DNA from: an uncultured Coriobacteriaceae bacterium
GTDB taxonomy: Bacteria; Actinomycetota; Coriobacteriia; Coriobacteriales; Atopobiaceae
Assembly: GCA_902791035.1 (NCBI GenBank)
Contig: CADAUA010000004.1
Coordinates: 1 to 64,000, forward strand
Direction of reading: 5' to 3'
DNA length: 64,000 nucleotides
Shown here: positions 32,773 to 56,072 of the stretch, piece after piece
How the letters are laid out: every line of letters starts with the position of its first letter
Numbering within the stretch: position 1 is the first letter of the stretch
The notes under the pieces: generated by a model
What the model saw: only the letters and a program-made list of their open reading frames with translations
What the model was told of the DNA's origin: nothing
Databases searched by the model: none
Made by a program: the position numbers and the translations under genes

Positions 32773-32818
32773 ACACGAGGCACCTGCAAGTGACACGTCA
32801 GTTGCAGGTGCCTCGTGT
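32773..32818. repeat. Palindrome E1, 17-bp arms
   Basis: ACACGAGGCACCTGCAA (32773-32789) pairs perfectly with 32802-32818 around a 12-base loop that contains GTGACACGTCA. It lies 36 bases after the thrB stop codon. It may act as a terminator, but no T-run follows. Confidence 0.85.
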
Positions 32819-32880
32819 TAGGAGATCCGAGAATGAGCAAGCCATCTACCTGCGCTTTTGCAATCGCCACCCAAACCACA

Positions 32881-32914
32881 CCCACCTGCAAGTGACATGT
32901 CACTTGCAGGTGGG
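32881..32914. repeat. Perfect 34-bp palindrome E2
   Basis: CCCACCTGCAAGTGACA meets its exact complement with no loop at all. The core TGACATGTCA and the CACCTGCAA flanks are shared with E1 60 bases away. It sits between convergent thrB and livF. Confidence 0.9.
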
Positions 32915-32973
32915 TCCTCAGACGGTGACAAGGGGTCAGACCCCAAGCAGGCAGACCCCCGGTCGGGTCAGGT

Positions 32974-54864: not shown

Positions 54865-54947
54865 TGCCCGAGGTGGGGGTCGAACCCACACGTAGTCACC
54901 TACGGCGGATTTTGAGTCCGCTGCGTCTGCCATTCCGCCACTCGGGC
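54865..54947 (-). tRNA. tRNA-Leu (CAA)
   Basis: Acceptor GCCCGAG/CTCGGGC, D-arm GGCGGAATGGCAGACGC, anticodon stem GCGGA/TCCGC with loop CTCAAAA (CAA), long variable arm GTAGGTGACTAC, T-arm GTGGG-TTCGACC-CCCAC, A73, encoded CCA at 54862-54864. In contrast to the tRNA-Leu at 2211-2293, all conserved positions are intact. Confidence 0.97.
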
Positions 54948-55084
54948 CTGAGCTGCGTACACACACACGGAGACTATACCAGATGACGCGCCCCGAGGCA
55001 CGAGCGGGTACGCGGCCGAAGGAGCGGGCAACAAGCGCCTGCAGGAGGCCAGGGCGGCTGGCTGGGGTTCATCATCCGGTAGCC

Positions 55085-55358
55085 CAGACGTTGGGAGGAG
55101 GTAACCCCTCCTACCGGGCACTAGGCCTAACGTCTGCAAGAGACGTCCAGACGTTGGGGGCAGGCACCCCCTCCGACCGAGCGCGGAGCCCAATGCCTGC
55201 AGGGGGCCAACACGCTGACCTGCGGTTTTGTCTGGAACGATCGCAGGCGTTTACGACAAGCACCCCTTCCCAACGAAGGAAGGGGCGTTCGTCTGCACGT
55301 ACCCGCAGGCGTTAGGGGTCGAACCCCCTCCGACCGGACGGGCGGCCCAACGGCTGCA
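55085..55358. repeat. Array of four 53-54-bp hairpin units
   Basis: Units at 55085-55138, 55148-55201, 55244-55297 and 55306-55358 all begin CAGRCGTT and end TGCA. Each has complementary or partly complementary ends (CAGACGTT...AACGTCTG is perfect in unit 1) and an inner G-run/C-run hairpin. The inner sequence varies while the length is fixed. The spacers are 9, 42 and 8 bases. The array occupies the gap downstream of the MBL gene and contains no open frame. Confidence 0.85.
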
Positions 55359-55383: not shown

Positions 55384-56016
55384 TTACCGCAGGAAGGGGT
55401 TTGTCGCCAGCTCGCGCGCCATGGTGGTGGAGGGGCCATGGCCGATGAGAAGGGTGGTGTCGGGCGCGATCTCCTCCCCCATGCGGCGGAGCGACGCCAG
55501 GATGGCCGCCTCGTCACCGCCCGAGAAGTCCGTCCTGCCGTGGGAGCCTGGGAAGAGGGTGTCGCCCACGAATGCCACGCCCTTGGCGGTCCCCTCGCCT
55601 ACGAGAACGATCCCGCCCGGTGTGTGGCCAGGGGTCTCCATCACGCGGAAGCGGGCGGTCCCCACCTCCACCACGTCGCCCTCGGCGAGCGTCCGGTCAG
55701 GCAGCGGCGCATCTGCGTCGTAGGACCGTCCGCTCTCGGCCACCTCACCCGCATGCGTTGCCCGCTCGGCGTCGGCCGCGTGGATGCAGAAGGGGGCGCC
55801 GGTGGCCGCCTTGAGGGCAGCCACGCCGCCCACGTGGTCGCCATGACCGTGCGTGGCCACGATCCAGCGGACCTTCTTGCCCGCCAGCTGCTCGGCGATC
55901 CGGTCGCCGCAGTTGCCAGGGTCCACGACCATGACCTCGCCCGCGGACTCGTACGCATAGCAGTTCGTGTCTATCGGCGGCACCACGAAGACCTGGATGC
56001 TGTCCTTCTCGCTCAT
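55384..56016 (-). CDS. Metallo-beta-lactamase fold hydrolase (glyoxalase II-like)
   Basis: The 210-residue protein has the dinuclear metal motif THGHGDH (about 55-61), the following His in TPGHTPGG, the Asp in FVGDTLFPGSHGR and the last His in LIGHGPST. This pattern and length match the short YcbL/GloB-type thioester hydrolases. Hydrolysis of a thioester or similar small substrate in the cytosol is expected; the substrate is unknown. It lies 56 bp downstream of rel on the same strand, with a palindrome between them. Confidence 0.88.
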   Translation of the reverse strand: MSEKDSIQVFVVPPIDTNCYAYESAGEVMVVDPGNCGDRIAEQLAGKKVRWIVATHGHGDHVGGVAALKAATGAPFCIHAADAERATHAGEVAESGRSYDADAPLPDRTLAEGDVVEVGTARFRVMETPGHTPGGIVLVGEGTAKGVAFVGDTLFPGSHGRTDFSGGDEAAILASLRRMGEEIAPDTTLLIGHGPSTTMARELATNPFLR

Positions 56017-56029
56017 GTATCTCCCCTCG

Positions 56030-56060
56030 TGTCACAAAAGTGTCTGACACCTTTGTGACA
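56030..56060. repeat. GTGACA-type palindrome (family G)
   Basis: TGTCACAAAAGTGTC and GACACCTTTGTGACA are complementary except for one base, around a single central T. It sits between rel and the MBL gene and begins and ends with the TGTCAC/GTGACA word seen in families B and F. Confidence 0.8.
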
Positions 56061-56072
56061 TCACGGTCCTCC

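Follow-up and report, generated by a model that had tools for sequence, protein, structure and literature searches.

What kind of element is an array of short palindromes that keep their length but not their sequence? The question arises in the window, the whole 64,000-nucleotide stretch of DNA analyzed here from an uncultured member of the Atopobiaceae, where four units of 55-56 bp, each an imperfect palindrome, occupy positions 55083-55358 in the gap from a tRNA gene (54865-54947, minus strand) to a metallo-beta-lactamase-fold gene (55384-56016, minus strand). On balance, we favor the view that the array is neither a gene nor a cassette but a DNA site, namely a tandem stretch of a site that is organized by a conserved core in the linkers and would be wrapped by a two-fold-symmetric complex. 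The array is made up of the following features.

55083-55138, plus strand: unit A1, a 56-bp imperfect palindrome with perfect 8-bp ends (covariance-model E 7.5e-9)
55139-55145, no strand: linker A1/A2, 7 bp, without a core
55146-55201, plus strand: unit A2, whose right end serves as left arm to the core-B element (E 1.5e-11)
55202-55241, plus strand: linker A2/A3, 40 bp, with core B
55216-55230, plus strand: core B, TGACCTGCGGTTTTG, with 2 mismatches to the consensus CTACCTGCGGTTTTG, which is kept, flanked by inverted repeats, in two of the order's families
55242-55297, plus strand: unit A3, whose left end serves as right arm to the core-B element, with a rearranged interior (E 5.4e-8)
55298-55303, no strand: linker A3/A4, 6 bp, without a core
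55303-55358, plus strand: unit A4 (covariance-model E 9.7e-11)

Measured from CAG to TGCA, the four units are 54, 54, 54 and 53 bp long, matching a first-pass annotation made from the sequence alone, and the perfect end stem which that annotation described for unit 1 (CAGACGTT/AACGTCTG) is present. The consensus unit has the ends GCAGACGTT and A(T/A)CGTCTGC and a center near GGCACCCCCTCTGACCGG. The further claim that each unit carries an inner hairpin of its own holds in part: when 12 units were folded as single-stranded DNA and their stability compared with that of shuffled sequences, six bore it out (z < -2) and four did not (z > -1.2). Overlooked at that stage was a motif in the 40-bp linker that separates unit 2 from unit 3, the core, which is written (C)TACCTGCGGTTTTG and also given as ACCTGCGGT.

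The array is not a chance occurrence, because its sequence, used as a query, finds matches at four further loci of this genome (best E 1e-25). A covariance model (R1), the kind of genome search that had been proposed at the outset, was built from 16 units and yielded about 50 distinct units in this genome (about 52, some of them weak members, as 12 arrays and three singles). The initial description of constant length and constant ends around a variable interior is thereby borne out as that of a dispersed palindromic repeat family. Unit length is 56 bp nearly without exception, yet identity between units of different arrays averages 59%, compared with 71% inside an array; at the outer ends the sequence itself is conserved, with almost no compensatory change (z 1.85). 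Unit starts are spaced by 61-64 bp (11 cases), 95-97 bp (15), 107 bp (6) or 117 bp (3), with one outlier of 36 bp, and these classes result from linkers of 5-8, 39-40, 51 and 61 bp. The core is present in all three of the longer linker classes. Linkers of the 40-bp class measure 39-40 bp in ten arrays at a mean identity of 51% (45% outside the motif); relative to them, the 51-bp linkers have about ten more bases preceding the motif and the 61-bp linkers about ten more on either side of it. A 342-aa reading frame (L049, 4604-5632, minus strand) is flanked by two of the arrays in opposite orientation, and was rejected as a transposase, having no Pfam family. The end of contig C4 (L048) and the start of contig C9 (L049) carry the same A-unit array with about 70 bp in common, so the two contigs are probably adjacent in the chromosome.

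Two other identities can be weighed against these data. Integron-like attC sites or recombination cassettes, an option raised in the first-pass annotation, have practically no chance of being correct: the boxes GCCTAAC and GTTGGGC do look like R'' and R', but their order is wrong for attC, cassette ORFs are missing between units separated by linkers of 5-61 bp, and no integron integrase rises above the curated cut-off of 265 bits (the top score is 73), which together speak strongly against the proposal. Inert tandem and dispersed duplications, without function and with lengths merely inherited, would agree with the higher identity of units within arrays (71%) than between them (59%) and with arrays that break the assembly, as at the C4 and C9 ends. 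We nevertheless regard this explanation as improbable, as lengths of 56 and 40 bp are held nearly free of indels at 59% and 51% identity, one core spans genera, and the phasing seen in 26 arm families (below) strongly disfavors it.

Whether the units exist elsewhere and are conserved in relatives had been named as decisive for the original observation, and the answer is divided. Units do occur elsewhere in the same genome and both the architecture and the core are conserved, whereas the unit sequence was not found in relatives. In 140 genomes of the family, among which the genus itself is represented by one genome, the A unit has one weak match only (G033, E 5e-4), in coding DNA and without an array, and scanning 85,000 species and viral contigs for the exact pattern yielded none. 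The consensus CTACCTGCGGTTTTG, at no more than one mismatch, is found in 122 of these 140 genomes and is enriched relative to a reversed control pattern (mostly 0-1). Copies per genome usually number 2-20 in this family and a second one, against 0-2 for the control. Across the class, the core is enriched in the family of the window (f1) and in the same-order family f3 (up to about 20 copies), which we guess to be the Coriobacteriaceae, and stays close to background in f2, a third family, and in most other orders. The exception is G194, a genome from another order of the class, with 7 matches (L341-L344), 3 of them exact and two belonging to one arm family with a phase of 3; horizontal transfer or a wider range of the core are both possible. 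Some matches to the 15-mer, including matches in coding DNA, are probably due to chance.

The core also occurs in the equivalent gap between the metallo-beta-lactamase and tRNA genes of Thermophilibacter gallinarum (L058), Atopobium sp. UBA1382 (L099) and an Atopobiaceae MAG (L057), where it is flanked by GGTTTGGGTTC-type arms and not by A units. In two Olsenella MAGs (L062, L073), the same intergenic gap downstream of the metallo-beta-lactamase gene is taken up by another kind of tandem array, TGGAGGC...GCGCTTAGC, which repeats about every 50 bp. Beyond the core and a few adjoining bases there is no sequence conservation around the relatives' sites, and a search of the flanks for a second conserved motif found A-tracts alone to be enriched. 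A literature search, which was not complete, returned no paper on the core string or on phasing of the kind described below.

In the relatives, the core is flanked by inverted repeats with arm sequences that vary between sites. Among the matches listed, 93 out of 197 distinct relatives' sites carry ungapped inverted arms that exceed the 95% null, and detectable arms are absent at about half of the core matches. The clearest numbers come from G318, in which 25 occurrences of the arm GGCCCATCTACTACGTTTA form 11 inverted pairs, 118-119 bp apart, plus three unpaired matches with partners under the search threshold. In 20 elements from G318 and its congener G268, the inner length is 100 bp (18 elements) or 99 bp (2), the distance from core to right arm is always 36 bp, and the arms are 91% identical, compared with 59% (lowest 41%) for the interior apart from the core. 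Constant length with a variable interior is therefore general to these elements. The arms at two further sites (L161, L269) are 50-bp near-perfect inverted repeats. A side-by-side pair of core-B elements that differ in their arms and lie about 250 bp apart occupies what is apparently one locus in both of these species (L270 in G268, L271 in G318), which suggests long vertical retention. The window itself holds a second core-B element, with arms of another family.

32776-32815, no strand: left palindrome, CGAGGCACCTGCAAGTGACACGTCAGTTGCAGGTGCCTCG, unrelated in sequence to the A units
32846-32860, plus strand: core, CTACCTGCGCTTTTG, 1 mismatch, with an arm asymmetry of 13 bp
32880-32915, no strand: right palindrome, ACCCACCTGCAAGTGACATGTCACTTGCAGGTGGGT

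More copies of this arm family (CACCTGCAAGTGACATGTCACTTGCAGGTG type) are found at G000:C16:1762 and C9:25205 (L141, L150).

Although the arms are unrelated in sequence, their placement follows a rule. We took u minus d, the left minus the right arm-core distance, as the measure of asymmetry, a quantity set by the symmetry axis alone and not by where arm ends are called. Its values cluster at -50, -29, -18, -8, 2-3, 12-14, 23-24 and 35, that is, at 2.5 + 10.5n bp. A Rayleigh test with one value for each of 26 arm families, drawn from the relatives' sites listed first, gave R 0.905 at a period of 10.5 (p about 6e-10), compared with 0.75 at 10 and 0.76 at 11; the clustering of arms was loose and may merge unrelated arms, making the test conservative. 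The arrays of the window's own genome, which stood outside that test, agree, with values of 3 (40-bp linkers), 12 (51-bp) and 2 (61-bp) in the linkers that could be scored, by automatic search and by direct counting, several others having arms too short or a core too degenerate for the automatic search. The same holds for five more core elements of this genome (13 for the element at 32846 in the window, then -8, 12, 12 and 3), and a single arm family shows both 3 and 12-13, one turn apart.

A matching periodicity lies in the base composition. Around 116 non-redundant relatives' sites, AT content near the core has a period of about 10.5 bp, extending to about 60 bp on either side (permutation p 0.003-0.005 over two runs on the left, 0.0005 on the right); A-tracts in the flanks recur at 10.5 bp, and random control sites have no such AT periodicity. 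The AT pattern is best mirrored about a point at -1.5 bp relative to the midpoint of the 15-mer, near the arm axis (-1.25 modulo 5.25) and the quasi-dyad ACC-TGC-GGT. Most of the periodicity comes from sites with arms, armless sites having the same phase at values that are not significant (p 0.25 and 0.09).

The phasing bears directly on a role in RNA, in which the palindrome would be transcribed and would fold, with the core near the loop, as a structured RNA or bidirectional terminator. The cores of some relatives are indeed one half of a terminator-like hairpin, as at L271 (AAAACCGCAGG-N7-CCTGCGGTTTT), and usually at least one neighboring gene has its 3' end toward the gap. RNA does not, however, require arms that move in steps of 10.5 bp, and this argues for a reading in terms of duplex DNA. 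With arm asymmetry quantized at 10.5 bp and spacing that tracks the DNA helical repeat, a pairing partner of the core that is not conserved, almost no covariation in the unit stem and no match to an Rfam family, we give the structured RNA array of the first-pass annotation little chance.

We propose instead that the core in the 40-bp linker would be the organizing part of the array, and that the hairpin units on either side of it may act as inverted arms. Arm sequence would then be free, the constraint being symmetry about the core and helical register (u minus d = 2.5 + 10.5n bp). A putative two-fold-symmetric complex on the core would wrap or bend about 60 bp of duplex per side, which would bring both arms into contact with the complex on one face, and arrays may expand by tandem duplication, their sequence drifting while their length stays. 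The core thus probably marks DNA for wrapping around a putative protein complex; both this complex and the wrapping we infer from the geometry of the sites. Some features sit poorly with the proposal. Wrapping alone would not call for the 50-bp near-perfect arms at L161 and L269, no core lies in the 6-bp linkers that join some units, and the model does not account for the 62-bp spacing. The two mismatches of the window's core to the consensus and the many core matches that lack arms count against it as well. By analogy, DNA gyrase is our first candidate for the occupant, though we would put its chances well short of even, followed by a lineage-specific architectural protein and, among other options, a transposition synapse; the gyrase motif is degenerate, and a conserved asymmetric 15-mer goes beyond it in specificity, which counts against gyrase. 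Taken more broadly, we tentatively suggest a class of chromosomal sites confined to some of the Coriobacteriales, where a single conserved core with arbitrary inverted arms in phase would form a sequence-free symmetry code for a putative two-fold-symmetric wrapping complex, and we know of no such symmetry rule for REPs, BIMEs or MITEs.

The most substantial competitor, which we consider unlikely but clearly ahead of the RNA and inert alternatives, is that these are MITE- or REPIN-like non-autonomous elements. The arms would be terminal inverted repeats for family-specific transposases, the core an internal bend site for synapsis of the ends, and the phasing a consequence of synapsis without any resident function. 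Arms that are family-specific, multicopy and intergenic fit this well, as do the inverted pairs of the G318 arm, 118-119 bp apart with the core between them, and a genome that itself encodes five RAYT-type Y1 transposases with palindromes of their own. Yet A units lie beside none of the five, the relative G061 lacks a Y1 transposase despite its 15 cores, a Blast comparison of core-B elements with RAYT flanks gave short, weak matches in one genome only, and one core common to unrelated arms is left unexplained. The mobile hairpin family of the first-pass annotation therefore keeps some of its standing, though the search gave no mobilizing enzyme. The five RAYT-type genes (L007-L011, frames of 261-373 aa) include several that are flanked on both sides by a palindrome family of their own, and the sequence at 56029-56062 in the window (GTGTCACAAAAGTGTCTGACACCTTTGTGACA) is nearly identical to the palindromes around the RAYT-type transposase gene on contig C17 (L009). 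A RAYT-driven REP identity for the A units was rejected, the RAYTs of this genome having other palindromes.

It is an old open question why bacteria retain palindromes interspersed in their genomes, and at which level, DNA or RNA, these act. The phasing of unrelated arms to one core speaks for DNA and supplies a geometric rule that can be tested. It may also offer a handle on nucleoid architecture or the control of supercoiling in Collinsella and Olsenella, common gut bacteria in which such matters have received little study.

Several known systems share parts of this arrangement. The parS site of plasmid P1 has a central IHF bend and arms bound by ParB, and the helical phase of its arms matters. 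A central bend site with phase-dependent arms is the likeness here, by analogy only, whereas our elements are chromosomal and multicopy, with arms that are not conserved and no known ParB boxes. GTAG/CGTC REPs and the REPINs associated with RAYTs are likewise palindromes that occur in many copies outside genes, mostly on the downstream side and frequently as inverted pairs, and some REPs are embedded in longer palindromes (PMC3733652, PMC3116915). The present elements differ in not being tied to the RAYTs of their own genome and in conserving the center and not the ends, around a fixed-length interior of divergent sequence. As for the unpaired GTAG or CGTC tag at one end of a REP, the unit ends read CGTCTGC, but are paired within a unit of 56 bp, compared with 20-40 bp for a REP palindrome, and the core starts CTAC. 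In E. coli, the pattern at gyrase sites spans 130 bp, with a central part between two flanks in which GC content oscillates with a 10.75-bp period, and such sites are over-represented in the palindrome arrays known as BIME-2 (PMC6379681). Here too we find intergenic tandem palindrome arrays, and about 120-130 bp with a GC/AT periodicity of roughly 10.5 bp on both sides of a center; the roughly 130-bp periodicity of a strong gyrase site is seen over all sites and at those with arms, and is not significant without arms. Those sites are degenerate, however, while the 15-bp core is nearly invariant. In BIME-1 (RIB/RIP) of E. coli, two inverted REPs flank an IHF site (PMC2817692), and our elements resemble it as dispersed, intergenic pairs of inverted palindromes around a putative central protein-binding stretch. 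The differences are that an IHF consensus within 40 bp was found at 0 of 195 cores and that many unrelated arm families, not one REP family, surround a single core. The IHF and RAYT results set these elements apart from BIME-1 and from RAYT-associated REPs, yet their BIME-like arrangement and gyrase-type periodicity suggest that they work like BIMEs.
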